Of a DNA stretch of 64,000 nucleotides, positions 4,111-17,582 are shown one piece after another; position 1 is the stretch's first letter, and every line of letters starts with the position of its first letter. The notes beneath the pieces were generated by a model that saw only the letters and a list, made by a program, of their open reading frames with translations, did not search any database and was not told where the DNA came from. The position numbers were made by a program, and so were the translations under genes. The stretch is taken from NCBI GenBank assembly GCA_938084565.1, contig CALKEU010000001.1:124001-188000 (forward strand), given 5' to 3'. The DNA is from Candidatus Kapaibacterium sp. GTDB taxonomy: Bacteria > Bacteroidota > Ignavibacteria > Kapaibacteriales > HRBIN21.

Positions 4111-4322
4111 GTCCATGGTCTGTCACTCTGTGCCCGTGTGGGAGAGAAAAATGCTGCTACAAGGAACCGCCTGTGCAATCCCCCACACGCAAGCCACCTC
4201 CCCCGATGAGCACAGAGGTACCGTGAGAGCCCACGAGGGAAGATTTGCCCTCTTCTGTTTTCGAGCCCCTCGAGAGGATGTAACGCTGAGCTCCACTACC
4301 AGCAGTCAGAGAGTGACGTAAA
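4111..4322. other. Intergenic region with a weak terminator-like hairpin
   Basis: No gene is visible in these 212 bases. The only structure noticed is GAGGG (4235-4239) pairing with CCCTC (4248-4252) followed by TTCTGTTTT, a short weak terminator-like hairpin for the upstream DUF1460 gene. Just beyond it lies the methyltransferase remnant, so this stretch may also be part of a decayed insertion. Confidence 0.4.
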
Positions 4323-4775
4323 ATGGCGTCACGAAGCTCACGAACGAGCTCCTTTGGAAGCCCTGCTCGCATATCTCACGACTCTACATCCTTCTATAGC
4401 CGCCGGCTCTACGAAGGCCTGCCACAAGAGCAAGTTGTTCAGTATCGGGAGTCCCCTCTACCGCCTGAATGTATCAACCGCACTTTTTGCAAAAGTTCTG
4501 AGAGCATGGAAGAGCTGCCCGATTGTTCCGTCCACCTTATGGTCACTTCTCCGCCTTACAATGTTGGCAAGGAATACGATGACGACTTGACATTGGCCGA
4601 GTACAGGGCTTTCCTCAAACGGGTTATGGCGGAAGTATACCGTGTGCTCGTTACAGGTGGTCGGGCGTGTATCAACGTAGCAAACTTGTGGCTTTAGCCA
4701 ACCGACGTATCGAAGCCTTTGTGGCCCAGAGATTGCTATTGTGCAGGCAATGCCGATGCAGAAGCAGTTTGACGT
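4323..4775 (+). pseudogene. Remnant of a site-specific DNA methyltransferase with a large internal deletion
   Basis: From ATG 4323 the frame encodes 124 residues with the adenine/cytosine-N4 methyltransferase catalytic motif TSPPYN, preceded by FYSRRLYEGLPQEQ and ELPDCSVHLMV and followed by GGRACINVANL. Intact relatives run about 300 residues and continue with a GRKPY segment. Here the frame jumps at about 4687-4693 and ends at TAG 4695-4697. In another frame just after it, ALANRRIEAFVAQRLL (about 4691-4740, stop near 4775) matches the far C-terminal end of the same family. The middle, including the SAM-binding motif near the C-terminus, is missing. It is almost certainly inactive. The family is seen; the deletion is inferred from the join. 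Confidence 0.75.
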
Positions 4776-4843
4776 GAAAGAACCATGAGGACGAGCGCAG
4801 TTCAGTGGTATCGAGACGGCGACAAACTTCCGGTTGTGGACGA

Positions 4844-7321
4844 ATGGATCTCTTGAGTCTTCGGAGGCAGCAGTTTGTGTTTCTCAGCGCTGTGCTGCTC
4901 TGGAATGCCGCTCCTACCGCTGCCTTCCCAGAGCAATGGCTGCAGCGGTGGTCTATCCCTTTGCAGGGAAACTGGGAGATGTCGACCGACGGCGGACGGA
5001 CGTGGACGAGAGTGTCGCTGCCGCACACGACTGCCGCAAGTACACCCTGGTATCGGCGAACCATCCGCATGGATAGCGCAGCCCTGCACCGCCAGTGGCA
5101 CCTTGCAACCTTCGGCATAGGAGATGTGGCCGATGTCTTTCTCAACGGCCGGCATGCTGCACAACTGATTAGCTACGGCCTGCCTACTACCGTGGTTCTG
5201 CCAACAGCGCTGTGGCGCGTTGGCGACAACACTCTCGAGCTAAGGCTTTCGACAGAACCCTTGAGCACTTCGTTTCTGGGACCTCACAGACCGCGTGGCT
5301 GCTTTCGGGAACTTCTGTTGCTGGGGACTGCGTCCGCATGGCTTCAGTATCTGGAAACTCACGCTGTTGCCGAAGCAGGTGGGCGGCTCGGCCGCGTCCG
5401 CATCGCCCTGACTGCTACTGGATCAGCTCCCCCGGTGGAACCTCTGCAGGTACGGATTCGTCTCCTCCGCCCCACAGATAGCGCTGCTGTTGCTGAACAA
5501 ATTCTTCCCCTGAGACGACTGCCCCAGCGCATAACTGCCTTCCTCGAAGTACCCAATCCAGCATTGTGGTCACCGCAGACCCCTGTCCTCTATGCGTTGA
5601 CTGTTGAGCTCCTGAGGGGGACAACCCCTATTGACGGAGCGCGCACAGCGGTTGGATTCCGCACCATTGGTATTCACTCAGGGGACACAACCTCTTTCGT
5701 GACGTGCAACGGCCAGCGTTTGCCACTCTACGGCGTGGAGTACTACGCTTCACCATCCTTCCCCCTCCAGACATCGGCCGAGATTGATCTTTTACGCACG
5801 ACGGGCATGAGCGTTGTTCGCCTTCGAGGAGTGCTCCCCCATCCGGAGTGGCTCTGGGCATGTGCTCGAGCCGGCATTGCTCTCATTGTTGAGCTACCGG
5901 TCACGGAATTGCCCCCGTCGTTACTGTGGCGGCCTACAACGCGCTTTATGCTCGAACACTACCTCCGGCTCCTCACTCCTCTGTTCGGCAATCCAGCCGT
6001 CATAGGGCTGACACTCTGGCACGGTCTGCCCCAGCACCCAGCTCTTCGAGCTTATGAACAGGCTATGCAGCAGCGTCTACGCCCTTACAACCTCTTGCTT
6101 GGGGCAGAGCTCTACGGGGGCACTCATGGAGAACGGTTTTCGCAACTACCTTTGCTCTTTGTGCGTCTCCACCCACCGTTTGTGGACGGCCATAGCCTCG
6201 AACGGGAGCTGGATCGTTGGATACAGTTGCAGCGGGCCGGTTCAGCCCTCATTCCCGTCGGTGGCTTGGCCATCGATCCGCGGAGTGCCTCGGGATATCT
6301 CCTCCCCAACTCTGCTGAGGCACAAGCTCGCTGGATTTGGCAATTCCTCAGTCTCTGCAAAGCCCGAGCAACAGCTGGGGCTCTGCTGTGGAGCTGGAAC
6401 GACTATGTTACCGCCTACCCACTGGTGAGTTTTCCCTTTCCGGCCGCCTCCTTCTGTCGCACGGGGCTTATCGATACCAGTGGGATTGCCCGACCGGCCT
6501 ACGCTGCGCTCCAGGCCTTCCTCCAGGAGGACCTAGAGCCGATTGTGGCACCTGGTCAAGCACCCTGGGGAACTCTGCCGATATATGTCCTCTGGGCTAC
6601 GATCCTATTGCTTCTGAGCGGCTGGATGCTCAACCGCTCGCCACGGTTACGCCACTTACTCTGGCGGGCGCTGAGTCGCAGTTCCTCCCTTCTTGCGGAC
6701 TTCCGAGATGGGCGCTTCATCGATGGCGGGGCAACGCTGGCATGTTTGACTCTCTCGAGCCTCAGCATTGCTGCTTTTGGGTCACTCTTGCAAGAGTGGC
6801 TTCGCATGCAGCCGCCGTGGGTTATCCTACTGTGGCAGCTCTTGCCACTGGAGTCCCTCCGAGAAGTTGTGGGCTGGATATTGCCCCGCCGATGGGCGCA
6901 ACTGCTGGCCAATACGTTTGTTTGGCCGCTTACACTCGGGACACTCGCCCTCTTCATTCGGCTTGCTGCCCGTGTGCTCCAACGCCGCTTATCGTGGCGG
7001 ACAGCCATGCTGTTGCTGATTTGGGGAACACTTCCGCTGAGCCTTTCCCTTCCTCTCCTCCTGCTCGGTGAGCGTCTGTTAGAGACGGCGGGGTTACAGA
7101 TTACCACACTCGGCACGCTTGGCATTCTAGCACTCTGGAGCACATGGCGAATCCTGCAGGGGTTGCACGTTATATTGCGTCTATCTCTGTGGGCTGTCCT
7201 CTTGGCAGCCCTGTGGGGACTGCTCTTGGTGAGTGGGATCGGTTTTGGTCTCTACGAGCTCTTCGGGTCTCTGAGTGCTTATTTGCGCTACGTAGCGAGC
7301 CTGTGGTGGGTTTTACCCTAG
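4844..7321 (+). CDS. GH2-like protein lacking catalytic glutamates, fused to a polytopic membrane domain
   Basis: 825 residues from ATG 4844; a GTG at 4805 is an alternative. A signal peptide (FVFLSAVLLWNAAPTAA) is followed by a GH2 sugar-binding jelly roll (about 30-170), an Ig-like domain with PNPALWSPQTPVLYALTVEL, and a TIM-barrel region containing YGVEYYASP, LLRTTGMSVVRLRG and ALLWSWNDY. Where active GH2 enzymes have WSLGNE, this protein has GLTLWHGLPQ (near 385), and the nucleophile segment reads IPVGGLAID, so both catalytic Glu appear absent. From about residue 579 to the end there are some six hydrophobic helices. It is probably a non-catalytic, membrane-anchored carbohydrate-binding or sensing protein. 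The function is unknown. Confidence 0.75.
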   Translation: MDLLSLRRQQFVFLSAVLLWNAAPTAAFPEQWLQRWSIPLQGNWEMSTDGGRTWTRVSLPHTTAASTPWYRRTIRMDSAALHRQWHLATFGIGDVADVFLNGRHAAQLISYGLPTTVVLPTALWRVGDNTLELRLSTEPLSTSFLGPHRPRGCFRELLLLGTASAWLQYLETHAVAEAGGRLGRVRIALTATGSAPPVEPLQVRIRLLRPTDSAAVAEQILPLRRLPQRITAFLEVPNPALWSPQTPVLYALTVELLRGTTPIDGARTAVGFRTIGIHSGDTTSFVTCNGQRLPLYGVEYYASPSFPLQTSAEIDLLRTTGMSVVRLRGVLPHPEWLWACARAGIALIVELPVTELPPSLLWRPTTRFMLEHYLRLLTPLFGNPAVIGLTLWHGLPQHPALRAYEQAMQQRLRPYNLLLGAELYGGTHGERFSQLPLLFVRLHPPFVDGHSLERELDRWIQLQRAGSALIPVGGLAIDPRSASGYLLPNSAEAQARWIWQFLSLCKARATAGALLWSWNDYVTAYPLVSFPFPAASFCRTGLIDTSGIARPAYAALQAFLQEDLEPIVAPGQAPWGTLPIYVLWATILLLLSGWMLNRSPRLRHLLWRALSRSSSLLADFRDGRFIDGGATLACLTLSSLSIAAFGSLLQEWLRMQPPWVILLWQLLPLESLREVVGWILPRRWAQLLANTFVWPLTLGTLALFIRLAARVLQRRLSWRTAMLLLIWGTLPLSLSLPLLLLGERLLETAGLQITTLGTLGILALWSTWRILQGLHVILRLSLWAVLLAALWGLLLVSGIGFGLYELFGSLSAYLRYVASLWWVLP

Positions 7322-7358
7322 GCGCTCCCCTTCATTCGTCGCATTGGAGGGTATAGAC

Positions 7359-8438
7359 GTGGCCATAGTGGGGACGATGCCACAGCAGCGAGCTCATGAG
7401 GCACTAACGGAGCGGCAACGGTGTGTGCTGCAGGCCGTTGTGCATCTCTACATTCGCACTGGGCGTCCGGCAAGCTCCCGGCTTGTGGCGCGGCGGCTAC
7501 GGGGGCGGCTCAATCTGAGCGCTGCGAGCATTCGTGCTATTATGGCCGAACTTGAAGAGCGTCGCTACCTGACCCATCCCCACACGTCCGCCGGGCGGAT
7601 CCCAACCGATCGGGGCTACCGAGCCTATGTGGACAGTCTCACCTCTCCCCAGGAGCTCAGTGAACAAGCACGCAGCTTCATTGAACGTGAACTGAGCGCC
7701 CACTCTGAGCAGCCAACCCTCTGGCAGGAAGCCTCACGTGTGCTCAGCGCCCTCGTTTCGGCTGTTGGATTGGTCCAGCCCCCCATGATCGAACGCCTCC
7801 CGCTGCGGCGCATTGAGCTCATCTCGCTCAGTCTGACGCACGTGCTCGTAGTGCTCATCTTCTCCTCGGGAGCTGTGCGCACGCTCATCACCCAGCTGTC
7901 CTCAGAGTTGAAGCCGAAGTACGTGGAGCTACTGGCGCGCCTGCTCAACCAGTATTTGGCTGGACATTCGTTGGCCACACTCCGCCACGCCTATACAGCC
8001 CTGCAGCAGGAACTCTCGACCCTTCCAGACCCACTTCCCCAGACCCTCCAGCAATGGCTCGAGCAACTGCCCGAACTGTCGGAGACACCCGAGCAGATCT
8101 ATGTCAGCGGGACATCACGGCTCCTCCACTACCCGGAATTCACCGCTGCCGAGCAGCTGCGCACCCTGGCTGATCTTCTCGAGCATGGGTCTCTCCTGCG
8201 GCGGCTCTTGGCCCGATATGGGCCCGTGCTCGAGCAACATCCGATCTTCGTTGGCATTGGACGAGAGCTGGGGGAAGCTGCCCTTGCAGAGTATGCCGTC
8301 ATCTTGGGCCGTTACCAGCTCGGGACAACCCATGGGGTTGTAGGCATTATTGGTCCAAAGCGTATCTTCTACCCCAAAGCCATTTCGGCTGTGCACTCCG
8401 TGGCCCGATTCCTCACAGAGCTGAGCCCACAGACGTAG
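7359..8438 (+). CDS. hrcA: Heat-inducible transcription repressor HrcA
   Basis: About 359 residues. GTG 7359 is preferred because GGAGG (7346-7350) sits 8 bases before it; ATG 7377 and TTG 7344 are in frame. The N-terminal winged-helix region includes SAASIRAIMAELEERRYL and HPHTSAGRIPTDRGYR, and the C-terminus has GVVGIIGPKRIFY, both diagnostic of HrcA. It represses chaperone genes by binding CIRCE operators and is itself kept active by GroEL. It heads hrcA-grpE-dnaJ, but no CIRCE inverted repeat is visible upstream, so its operators probably lie elsewhere, for example before groESL. Confidence 0.95.
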   Translation: MAIVGTMPQQRAHEALTERQRCVLQAVVHLYIRTGRPASSRLVARRLRGRLNLSAASIRAIMAELEERRYLTHPHTSAGRIPTDRGYRAYVDSLTSPQELSEQARSFIERELSAHSEQPTLWQEASRVLSALVSAVGLVQPPMIERLPLRRIELISLSLTHVLVVLIFSSGAVRTLITQLSSELKPKYVELLARLLNQYLAGHSLATLRHAYTALQQELSTLPDPLPQTLQQWLEQLPELSETPEQIYVSGTSRLLHYPEFTAAEQLRTLADLLEHGSLLRRLLARYGPVLEQHPIFVGIGRELGEAALAEYAVILGRYQLGTTHGVVGIIGPKRIFYPKAISAVHSVARFLTELSPQT

Positions 8439-8497
8439 GGCCCATATTCGTCTTATACCGTCGCACGAAATGTCCCCTCACCGAGGGCCATGAGACC

Positions 8498-9166
8498 ATG
8501 GCAGATGTCCAACACGCCCCTGACTACTCTACCGGCGATATAGCAGGAAAGCTACGGCAGACCTATCTGCAGCATGAAGAGCCTTCTCCATCGGCAGCTT
8601 TCTCGAGCGAATCCTCCGCCGAAACGGCCAGTGCTGTGACCGAGACAACTGAAGCTGCTGACTCTGCACGAGCTGAACTGGAGCAACTTCAGCAGAAGTA
8701 CGAAGAGCTCCACGACCGCTACCTTCGTCTGGCAGCCGATTTTGAAAACTACCGCAAACGGATGCTGCGGGAGCGCGAGGCATGGGCTGAGACCCTTACC
8801 GAACAGCTCCTGCACCATCTCCTCCCCATTGTGGATCAGCTGCAGCTAGCCCTGGAAACATCTGCCGCCTCTCCAGAATCCCTGCGCCAGGGCGTGGAAC
8901 TCATTGCGCGCAACCTCACCAAACTGCTCGAGCAGCTCGGAGTCAAACCCATCGAGATTACCCCGGGTCAAGCCTTTGACGTCTACTACCACGAGGCCAT
9001 GCTCCATGTCCCCTCGGAGGAAATCTCTGCCGGCCATATCATCAAGGAGCTCCAGCGGGGATATCTCTTCCGAGACCGTGTACTTCGCCATGCGCGAGTA
9101 GCTGTCTCTTCAGGCCCACCGTCTGACCACCAGGACACCGCCACAGAGAGTTCTCCCGAGCTATAG
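8498..9166 (+). CDS. grpE: Nucleotide exchange factor GrpE
   Basis: 222 residues. An acidic, low-complexity N-terminal tail leads into a long coiled coil ([29 protein letters not shown]), then the C-terminal beta domain with [13 protein letters not shown] and [16 protein letters not shown], all typical of GrpE. It speeds ADP release from DnaK in the cytoplasm. It lies between hrcA and dnaJ in the standard heat-shock order. dnaK itself is not in the window. Confidence 0.96.
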
Positions 9167-9170
9167 GGCC

Positions 9171-10328
9171 ATGCGCGACTACTACCAGATCCTCGGTGTT
9201 CCCCGGACAGCCACGGCAGAAGAGATCAAAGCTGCATACCGTCGACTGGCTCTCCAGTACCATCCCGACCGCAACCCCGGCAATCCGGAAGCTGAGGAGC
9301 GCTTCAAAGAAATTGCTGAAGCCTATGCCGTGCTCAGCGATCCGGAAAAGCGACGTCTCTACGATCGCTACGGCCACGCTGGCCTGCAGTCCAGCGGTTC
9401 ACCAGTGCCGCACTTTACAACCCTTGAGGATGTCTTCAGCTACTTTGCGAACTTCTTCGCTGATGACTTCTTCGGAGACCTCTTCGGCCCCTCGTCGCAT
9501 CGAGCTCAGGCTACAGCTGAACGGGGTACCGATCTGCGGATCCGGCTACGGGTGACATTGGAAGAGATTGCCCGGGGAGCGGAGAAGACGCTCGAGATTT
9601 CCCGCTGGAATGTCTGCCAGCGGTGTGGTGGTAGCGGAAGTCTGGGCGGACAATTCTCCCCCTGCCCTCAATGTCAAGGCCGGGGGGAGGTCCAGCAGGT
9701 GTCTCGCTCGCTCTTCGGACACGTTATCCAGCTCTTCACGTGCCCGAGCTGCAGCGGCAGCGGAGTTATTCCCCGCAGCCCGTGCCCAGAATGCGGTGGT
9801 GAAGGCCGCCTGCGCGGTCATGCCACCGTTGCTATCCGTATCCCGCCTGGGGCCGTCACCGGCACTCAGCTGATCCTCCGCGGTGAGGGCAACGCCGGGC
9901 GTCGCGGCGCGCCGGCAGGGGATCTCATCGTCCTCATCGAGGAGGCTGAACATCCTCACTTCCGTCGCGAGGGCGCCGATATTCATGCCTCCTACACTCT
10001 GAGCTTCCCCGAAGCCGTGCTGGGAACTACTGTAGAAGTTCCCACCCTCTGGGGGACAGTACCGCTGACGGTCGAACCCGGCACCCAGCCAGGTACGGTG
10101 ATACGGCTGTCCGGCCAAGGGCTACCCATCGCAGATACACGCCGGCGCGGTGACCACTACGTTCATCTCTCTGTCTACATCCCCGAGACGCTTACCGACG
10201 AGGAGCTCAACCTTATCGAACGCCTGCAGAAGAGCCCGAACTTCTATCCCCCCGACCGCCGTGCACAGCAACCCCAGGAGAAGCGCCGAGATAACTTCTG
10301 GAAACGAGTGCGGAAAGCTCGTTCCTAG
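9171..10328 (+). CDS. dnaJ: Chaperone DnaJ
   Basis: 385 residues, 4 bases after grpE. The J domain (residues 1-70) carries HPD at 31-33, which stimulates DnaK ATPase. The linker is Phe/Gly/Asp-rich. The zinc-finger domain has the four expected CxxCxGxG repeats: [24 protein letters not shown] and CPECGGEG. The C-terminal substrate-binding beta domains follow. This is a complete type I DnaJ. Its 3' end is 5 bases from the ComEA-like gene, suggesting continued transcription. Confidence 0.97.
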
Positions 10329-15422: not shown

Positions 15423-15533
15423 CACCGCGCTAGCAAATCGCCCGAACCGCAGACTTTGCGCGCACAGCACAGGAGCTGACCTCCATCAACCCCCTCCATG
15501 CTCTATATCATTGGCAATCCGATGTGTCCACCA

Positions 15534-15541
15534 GAAGTTTG
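15534..15541 (+). promoter_or_regulatory. Weak candidate -7 element for nosZ
   Basis: GAAGTTTG differs from TAnnTTTG at one position and has TTGG 19 bases upstream, 71 bases before the nosZ start. No FNR/CRP-type TTGAT-N4-ATCAA palindrome was found in the mutS-nosZ gap. This is a weak suggestion. Confidence 0.2.
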
Positions 15542-15597
15542 CGTCAGGCAGCCACAAGAGATCCTCTCTGTGCAAGCCTGTCCAGAGGTACAACATC

Positions 15598-15611
15598 AGG
15601 AGGGTACTCCT
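15598..15611 (+). promoter_or_regulatory. Hairpin that encloses the nosZ ribosome binding site
   Basis: AGGAG (15598-15602) pairs perfectly with CTCCT (15607-15611) around a GGTA loop, ending at the base before ATG 15612. The Shine-Dalgarno sequence AGGAGGG would be partly hidden in the stem. A second complementary pair, CCTCT (15563-15567) and AGAGG (15583-15587), lies just upstream. Control of translation is inference. Confidence 0.35.
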
Positions 15612-17582
15612 ATGACAGCTCGGACACTTTCTCGGACAGCACTGTGGCTATTGCCAGTATGCGTTGCAAGCATCGCCATTTTCCTAAGTGGGTGCCCCGG
15701 CCCAAAGCAGACGGTCGCGACAGGCGATGCAGCATCGCTTGTCTATGTTCCACCGGGACAGTACGATGAATTCTACGCCTTCCTCTCCGGTGGCTTCAGC
15801 GGGCAGGTTACAGTCTACGGCTTACCAAGTGGACGCCTCTTCAAAATCATCCCCGTCTTTGCCGTCCACCCTGAGAACGGATATGGCTATACACCGGAGA
15901 CGCAACCGCTCCTGATGACATCCTATGGGTTCATCCCATGGGATGACACGCACCACCCAGAGCTCTCCCAAACAGACGGAGTTCCCGATGGGCGCTGGTT
16001 ATTCATCAATTCGAACAACACCCCACGCGTAGCCCGCATCGATCTCCGAACCTTTGAGACAGTGGAGATCCTGGAAATTCCCAACTCGGCGGGGAACCAT
16101 GCCTCACCATTCGTAACGCAGAATACCGAATACGTCGTGGCCTCTACACGCTTCAGTGTACCGATTCCCCAGAAAGATGTCCCCATTGCCACCTACAAGC
16201 AGAACTTCAACGGGACCATCAGCTTCATCAAAGTTGACCCACAGACCGGACGGATGGAGCTTGCTTTCCAGATCTTGGTTCCGGGATACAACTACGATCT
16301 TTCGCACGCAGGCAAGGGCCCATCCCATGGCTGGGCTTTCTTTACCGCTTACAATACCGAACAGGCTCACACCTTGCTGGAAGTCAATGCCTCGCAGCAT
16401 GACAAGGACTTTATTGCCGCCGTCAACTGGAAGAAAGCCGAAGAGTACCTGGCACAGGGTAAGTACCGTGAAATGCCGGCAGAGTACTATCACAATGTCT
16501 ACGACGAACGCAAACACATGGCCACCTCGCGCGTACTGACGAAGGTGAAAGTCCTCATACCTTCCGAATGCCCCGGCATAATTTACTACCTACCAACACC
16601 GAAGTCGCCCCATGGGGTCGATGTTGACCCTTCGGGTGAGTACATCGTGGCGGGGGGCAAGCTCGCAACAGTTATCCCTGTCCACTCCTTCTCAAAGATG
16701 CTCAAGGCTATCGAGGAGCGGCAATTCGATACCATTATCGACGGTATCCCTGTTCTCAAGTACGATGCCGTAATCGCTGGGGAGGTCAAGACCCCTGGCC
16801 TTGGACCACTACACACGGAGTTCGACGGTAAGGGGTATGCTTACACGTCACACTTCGTCTCCTCTGAAGTGGTCAAGTGGAAGTTGGGAACATGGGAGGT
16901 CGTCGACCGCATTCCAACGTACTATAGCCTTGGCCACATTATGATCCCCGGTGGGGACAGCCGGAAACCGTGGGGCAAGTATCTGGTTGCCATGAACAAG
17001 ATCACGAAGGACCGCTACTTACCCACGGGTCCAGAGCTTGTGCAATCGGCACAACTCATCGATATCAGCGGCGAGAAGATGCGCCTTCTCCTGGACTTCC
17101 CCACCCTCGGCGAACCACACTACGCACAAGCTATCCCGGCTGAGATCGTTATGAAGAACTCCCTCAAAGTCTACCCACTCCAGGAGAACGCACACCCCTA
17201 CGCTGTCAAGTCTCCTGAGCAGGCCCGGGTGGAGCGTAAGGGCAATGAGGTCCACGTGTACATGACCGCCGTGCGTACCCACTTCCGCCCCGATAACATC
17301 GAGGGGATACAGGTGGGGGACAAGGTCTACTTCCATGTCACCAACCTGGAGCAGGATTGGGACATCCCGCACGGCTTTGCTATCCTGGGATCGAACACAG
17401 CGGAGCTTCTCATTATGCCCGGGCAGACGAAGACGTTAGTGTGGGAGCCGAAGAAACCCGGCGTCTATCCCTTCTACTGCACTGACTTCTGCTCAGCGCT
17501 CCACCAAGAGATGCAAGGGTACGTGAGGGTCTCCCCGCGCGGAGCCAACGTACCGCTGACGTACGGGACCGGAACTGAGTAA
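15612..17582 (+). CDS. nosZ: Nitrous-oxide reductase, Sec-exported clade II type, probable lipoprotein
   Basis: 656 residues from ATG 15612 behind AGGAGGG; the frame stays open further upstream but lacks a site. It reduces N2O to N2 in the periplasm. A Sec lipoprotein signal ends in the lipobox FLSGC rather than a Tat signal, as in clade II NosZ. The CuZ-domain propeller has WDDTHHPELS (His 114-115) plus His in PSHGWAFF, SPHGVDV, GPLHTEF, TSHFVSS and GEPHYAQ. The CuA domain has PHGFAILGSN (His 587) and CTDFCSALHQEM (Cys 623, Cys 627, His 631, Met 634). All copper ligands expected of an active enzyme can be found. It is the first gene of nosZBLDFY. Confidence 0.96.
   Translation: MTARTLSRTALWLLPVCVASIAIFLSGCPGPKQTVATGDAASLVYVPPGQYDEFYAFLSGGFSGQVTVYGLPSGRLFKIIPVFAVHPENGYGYTPETQPLLMTSYGFIPWDDTHHPELSQTDGVPDGRWLFINSNNTPRVARIDLRTFETVEILEIPNSAGNHASPFVTQNTEYVVASTRFSVPIPQKDVPIATYKQNFNGTISFIKVDPQTGRMELAFQILVPGYNYDLSHAGKGPSHGWAFFTAYNTEQAHTLLEVNASQHDKDFIAAVNWKKAEEYLAQGKYREMPAEYYHNVYDERKHMATSRVLTKVKVLIPSECPGIIYYLPTPKSPHGVDVDPSGEYIVAGGKLATVIPVHSFSKMLKAIEERQFDTIIDGIPVLKYDAVIAGEVKTPGLGPLHTEFDGKGYAYTSHFVSSEVVKWKLGTWEVVDRIPTYYSLGHIMIPGGDSRKPWGKYLVAMNKITKDRYLPTGPELVQSAQLIDISGEKMRLLLDFPTLGEPHYAQAIPAEIVMKNSLKVYPLQENAHPYAVKSPEQARVERKGNEVHVYMTAVRTHFRPDNIEGIQVGDKVYFHVTNLEQDWDIPHGFAILGSNTAELLIMPGQTKTLVWEPKKPGVYPFYCTDFCSALHQEMQGYVRVSPRGANVPLTYGTGTE

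Follow-up and report, generated by a model that had tools for sequence, protein, structure and literature searches.

Membrane receptors and scaffolds built on pseudo-glycosidases are known mainly from animals, where the Klotho co-receptors use a pseudo-glycosidase ectodomain as part of the receptor. In the rBAT and 4F2hc heavy chains, a membrane-anchored ectodomain of glycosidase fold likewise serves as a scaffold or chaperone and not as an enzyme (PMC8537225). Among integral membrane domains, the Yip1 family (PF04893) comprises bacterial and eukaryotic proteins with five transmembrane (TM) helices (PMC6682643, PMC8327215). The protein analysed here is encoded in a 64,000-nucleotide stretch of a Candidatus Kapaibacterium sp. 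genome, the whole of which is referred to as the window, and it joins a GH2-like ectodomain without catalytic glutamates to a Yip1-like membrane domain in a single chain.

Architecture, fold and predicted topology

The gene (window 4844..7321, forward strand, stop included) is an uninterrupted open reading frame with a TAG stop that encodes a pseudo-GH2/Yip1-like membrane protein of 825 aa, its extent being supported by full-length homologues. An alternative GTG start at 4805 would add 13 residues, but the ATG at 4844 is preferred because it fits an N-terminal signal peptide, read from the sequence at approximately residues 1-27 (4844..4924) and modelled as a hydrophobic helix over residues 2-20 with a low-confidence break at 21-29. 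Approximately 730 bp (window 4111-4843) separate the gene from its upstream neighbour, and Rfam and tRNA scans of the window, including this interval, returned no match.

The ectodomain follows the GH2 order of jelly-roll, Ig-like and TIM-barrel domains, with a sugar-binding-like jelly-roll at residues 30-175 (4931..5368), an Ig-like domain at residues 176-280 (5369..5683) and a TIM-barrel-like domain lacking the catalytic glutamates at residues 281-565 (5684..6538). In the divergent window copy, the Ig-like model PF00703 matched at 40.6 bits (cut-off 23; E 4.8e-10), whereas the jelly-roll models (PF02837 and PF22666, both weak) and the barrel model fell below the cut-off or gave no match; among the 21 members of alignment A1, PF02837 was matched in 18, PF22666 in 12 and the barrel model PF02836 in 16. 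A Pfam search with PF02836 returned no match in the window protein or anywhere in the window genome, which by that test contains no other recognisable GH2 barrel. A search of solved-structure sequences with the window protein recovered GH2 enzymes at 1e-10. An AlphaFold2 model built from 65 natural sequences (mean pLDDT 88.4, pTM 0.85) aligned over residues 33-576 with solved beta-glucuronidases and beta-galactosidases at Z 34.6 and 2.9-3.0 Å across 525-526 residues, at 16% identity. The initial annotation had recognised sugar-binding, Ig-like and barrel segments of GH2 in the sequence and had suggested a comparison of predicted with solved structures; that comparison matched the complete GH2 fold and, together with PF00703, bore out all three segments. 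By its fold the ectodomain is GH2 in descent, yet it lacks the catalytic features that define GH2 enzymes.

The C-terminal tail, initially read as a run of hydrophobic helices, contains six hydrophobic segments centred near residues 587, 641, 696, 733, 762 and 794, which were modelled as helices at high confidence. When modelled alone (pLDDT 88.7), the tail forms one helix and a juxtamembrane segment followed by five membrane helices. On the evidence of the hydrophobic segments, the models and the distribution of lysine and arginine, TM1 (residues 580-598; 6581..6637) is predicted to run from periplasm to cytosol and to be followed by a conserved, K/R-rich cytosolic loop (residues 599-627; 6638..6724) and by the five further TM helices that complete the Yip1-like domain (residues 628-825; 6725..7318). 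Five TM helices preceded by a cytosolic amphipathic segment, a Yip1 feature, are present in this arrangement, as TM1, the conserved RPYNFYADIRDQR loop and the five helices. As a family average, the loops that follow TM1, TM3 and TM5 are enriched in K/R and the other loops are not, so that the GH2 part, behind its signal peptide, would lie in the periplasm; an inner-membrane protein with a periplasmic GH2 part and a cytosolic loop after TM1 is therefore predicted. That loop, with the family consensus RFREYxxRALLRPYNFYADIRDQR, has a mean pairwise identity of 60%, against about 28% elsewhere (26-30% for neighbouring regions, 26-29% for the jelly-roll, barrel and other membrane helices, and 23% for the Ig domain), and is on this basis the best candidate for a docking site.

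Yip1 PF04893 matches 25 of 34 family members (best 6.6e-8) but not the window copy, and several relatives pass its gathering score of 28.6 bits, at 29.2-33.0 bits. Profile comparison with the ordinary Yip1 proteins of the class was weak (probability 16-37%). The isolated membrane domain had no match in the PDB at E <0.001, with a best Z of 4.7 in a second look, so that no fold relative can be named for it, although novelty of the fold does not follow. Membership of the Yip1 family is likely for the membrane part across the family and unproven for the window copy. The initial annotation had considered such a protein on a multi-helix membrane base to be undescribed; this holds for the GH2-Yip1 fusion, for which no description was found in the open-access literature searched, but not wholly for the membrane domain, given the relatives that pass the Yip1 cut-off.

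Distribution, conservation and domain loss

In the order to which the window belongs, the gene is matched in 60 of 61 genomes, mostly along its entire length. Across the class, the full family profile finds a match in 188 of 197 genomes; as it can also hit ordinary GH2 proteins or the membrane part alone, full-length copies number somewhat fewer than 188. The nine class genomes without a match fall mostly in family f19; the remainder includes G181 and G183, which lack the chromosome-organising gene smc, the usual neighbour, too and look like bins missing a contig. When the membrane part alone served as query, matches came from 91 of the 296 phylum genomes, including 20 that do not belong to the class. 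Hits of the family include metagenome-assembled genomes of Candidatus Kapaibacterium, Ignavibacteria and Chlorobiota. These searches point to a gene that is nearly universal in the class and has forms in further classes of the phylum, and not to an oddity of one genome.

Reduced forms are found at several points. Genus g36 of family f19 has just the membrane module, immediately in front of smc; in L127 it is 258 aa long and, at 32.8 bits, exceeds the Yip1 cut-off. Other f19 genera carry smc with no module beside it. The stand-alone Yip1-like modules without a GH2 part that lie directly upstream of smc in f19 are located at L127:6929-7705 and L258:7835-8737. Short forms of 520-623 aa in L128, L130, L131 and L132 consist of the barrel and membrane domain without the jelly-roll and Ig domain, and such forms occur in families f50, f52 and f56, outside the class.

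One explanation of these losses, which we consider unlikely, is that the membrane module alone is functional and that the GH2 part is a slowly decaying, dispensable remnant. The retention of just the module in g36, at the same place before smc, would fit such a decay, as would the Salinibacter-like genomes that keep barrel and membrane domain without jelly-roll and Ig domains, and the repeated loss of catalysis described below. However, most of the class keeps the full-length form, no internal stops occur among the matches listed, and invariant residues are distributed across all three GH2 domains. Further, the mean identity of the ectodomain (27.8%) is close to that of the membrane part (30.4%), indicating that the ectodomain is under constraint and not drifting, although it is no longer an enzyme.

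Loss of catalysis across the family

An alignment was made of 154 distinct full-length members, in which the catalytic columns were placed via relatives that keep 'GNE' and 'TEYG'. In the window protein, the acid/base glutamate of 'GNE' is replaced by Gly394 (6023..6025) and the nucleophile glutamate of 'TEYG' by Val472 (6257..6259), and no glutamate was found in this alignment near the end of either catalytic strand. The loss of both catalytic residues claimed in the initial annotation is thereby confirmed, and the finding that was named as capable of overturning it, two glutamates in the active cleft, was not obtained at either strand end. Across the family, glutamate occupies the acid/base column in 21 of the 154 members and the nucleophile column in 30; neither is present in 107 members, only the nucleophile in 26, only the acid/base in 17 (a class in which some members read 'EE' or 'DE', maybe by chance) and both in four. 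As to the check proposed there, whether homologues share the lost glutamates and the membrane tail, the tail is shared and the loss of the glutamates is shared in part, 43 members retaining one of the two. The four members with both glutamates belong to one genus code, g51 of family f23 (L226, L227, L228 and L234), and are full-length fusions that may be active membrane-anchored GH2 enzymes; L226, the one scanned, is an ordinary GH2 protein by Pfam (PF02836 E 9e-52).

In a FastTree phylogeny, the state of having neither glutamate required 20 changes, at least 16 of them being forced by well-supported branches, although the tree is unrooted and fast and letter make-up differs between rows, so the exact number is untrustworthy. 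The most likely history, as judged from these sequences, is that an ancestral active membrane-anchored glycosidase lost catalysis many times. The initial annotation had envisaged the opposite order, in which catalysis was lost and a membrane domain then gained, but the g51 members and the relatives with a single glutamate already carry the full fusion, and the active membrane-anchored enzyme therefore probably came first.

It is improbable that the window protein is still an enzyme, with another residue or mechanism in place of the two glutamates or with an unusual substrate. The four relatives with both glutamates, and the strong GH2 match of the one scanned, speak for such activity, as does the conservation of Glu492 (86%) and Asp520 (96%). 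Against this, both glutamate positions vary freely across the family (Gly, Ser, Asn, Asp, Cys, His and others), and Glu492 sits in the helix that follows strand 7, a place at which active GH2 enzymes also carry a glutamate, so that it is not a special substitute.

Gene neighbourhood, possible role and comparison with known systems

Of the 123 loci with sufficient flanking sequence, 67 have smc as the next gene downstream. Among loci of known family code that lie outside the window's order, the count is 63 of 70, spread over 19 of 22 families, some of which do not belong to the class. The gap to smc has a median of 8 bp across the 41 loci where it was measurable, with a one-base overlap in six. 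Directly upstream, tpiA is found in 26 loci, and as the genes farther out near smc are those of ordinary metabolism (tpiA, gatB, sucC), this operon could be historical. Within the window's order, hrcA-grpE-dnaJ (window 7344-10328) lie downstream instead, a linkage common within the order and not seen outside it. The window genome has smc approximately 58 kb from the gene, which lies there beside hrcA-grpE-dnaJ, suggesting that the protein need not be tied to smc in function in every genome. Because the place of the gene differs in this order, the smc operon is probably ancestral and was lost there. Further along the window, a forward-strand stretch at 15498-17582 resembles nitrous oxide reductase (nosZ) on a reading of its sequence.

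Retention nearly throughout the class, usually just before smc, suggests a probably basic envelope function as a receptor or scaffold that does not cut. More specifically, the protein is quite possibly, though tentatively, a non-catalytic receptor or scaffold through which the state of the envelope or of a periplasmic glycan would be relayed to a partner in the cytosol, a reading that builds on its anatomy, the loss of both glutamates, its conservation, the repeated losses and the adjacency to smc. Most likely descended from an active membrane-anchored glycosidase and now acting without catalysis, its pseudo-barrel would bind a putative periplasmic glycan or partner protein, the bound state would be passed through the six-helix Yip1-like membrane domain, and a putative cytosolic partner would dock on the conserved loop; the recurrent smc operon would point to a function that couples the envelope to the cell cycle or the chromosome. 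A counter-point is that some f19 genomes lack the ectodomain or the whole gene. A bolder form of this proposal, which we regard as doubtful, is that the protein is a membrane partner of SMC that has gone unnoticed on the scale of a phylum, in Ignavibacteria, Kapabacteria and relatives; its pseudo-glycosidase part would act as a sensor in the periplasm and its conserved loop as a cytosolic docking site, tying the glycan state of the cell wall or envelope to the organisation of the chromosome or to division.

The initial annotation had suggested a receptor, transporter partner or scaffold, of which receptor or scaffold is the best remaining class; nothing specific supports a transporter partner, and the smc operon is the strongest clue. 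A role as transporter chaperone or subunit, in the manner of 4F2hc for LAT1, would draw on analogy, in that a dead glycosidase ectodomain is combined with a membrane part (PMC8537225), and is quite improbable given that the neighbourhood clusters examined contain no conserved transporter gene and that 4F2hc is single-pass and of another fold family. An accessory role in type IX secretion is very unlikely: sprA is a divergent upstream neighbour in families f2, f4 and f9 of the window's order (TIGR04189 E 9.8e-263 for the L038 copy), but it is not a neighbour outside the order, is unlinked in the window genome (contig 5) and is kept in f19 genomes without the pseudo-GH2 protein. The gene thus shows neither stable linkage nor co-distribution with sprA, and since sprA occurs throughout the class and is not linked elsewhere, its co-occurrence lends no support to such a role. 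Within the window itself, a forward-strand fragment at 48-704, away from the sprA on contig 5, reads as BNR/sialidase-like repeats with a C-terminus resembling a type IX secretion sorting domain. Lastly, an artefact in which a GH2 gene and a membrane gene were joined by a frame error, named in the initial annotation as a possible refutation, or by assembly has a negligible probability. Only the unusual architecture and one relative split over frames (G008) lend it colour, and it is rejected because independent relatives, one of them a finished chromosome, carry the same fusion in a single frame. In G008, a one-contig genome, the gene (G008:C1:1992542-1994925) runs over three frames, reflecting either sequencing errors or a real pseudogene.

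The family thus offers a pseudo-glycosidase membrane protein kept across a bacterial class, together with a natural graded series of both glutamates, one, none, partial ectodomain and membrane module alone, in which the change from enzyme to non-enzyme is open to direct test. The persistence of the operon with smc suggests that envelope and chromosome biology are connected in bacteria where this has been little studied. For annotation, it is a warning that genes of this family are likely counted as active GH2 enzymes.

Compared with the GH2 beta-glucuronidases and beta-galacturonidases (PDB 3cmg, 5z1a and 6ncw), the window protein has the same three-domain fold (Z ~34 over >510 residues) but differs in lacking the acid/base and nucleophile glutamates, in its polytopic membrane fusion and in its low identity (16-18%). 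With the Yip1 proteins the family shares a model that matches 25 of 34 members and the stand-alone f19 module (32.8 bits), whereas the window copy has no match to that model and a large GH2 ectodomain has been added. The rBAT and 4F2hc heavy chains may be similar in their way of working, with no homology claimed, and differ in having an alpha-amylase (GH13) fold and one TM helix and in being animal proteins. The Klotho co-receptors resemble the pseudo-GH2 protein in their use of a pseudo-glycosidase ectodomain and differ from it in their GH1 fold, their single membrane pass and their occurrence in animals.
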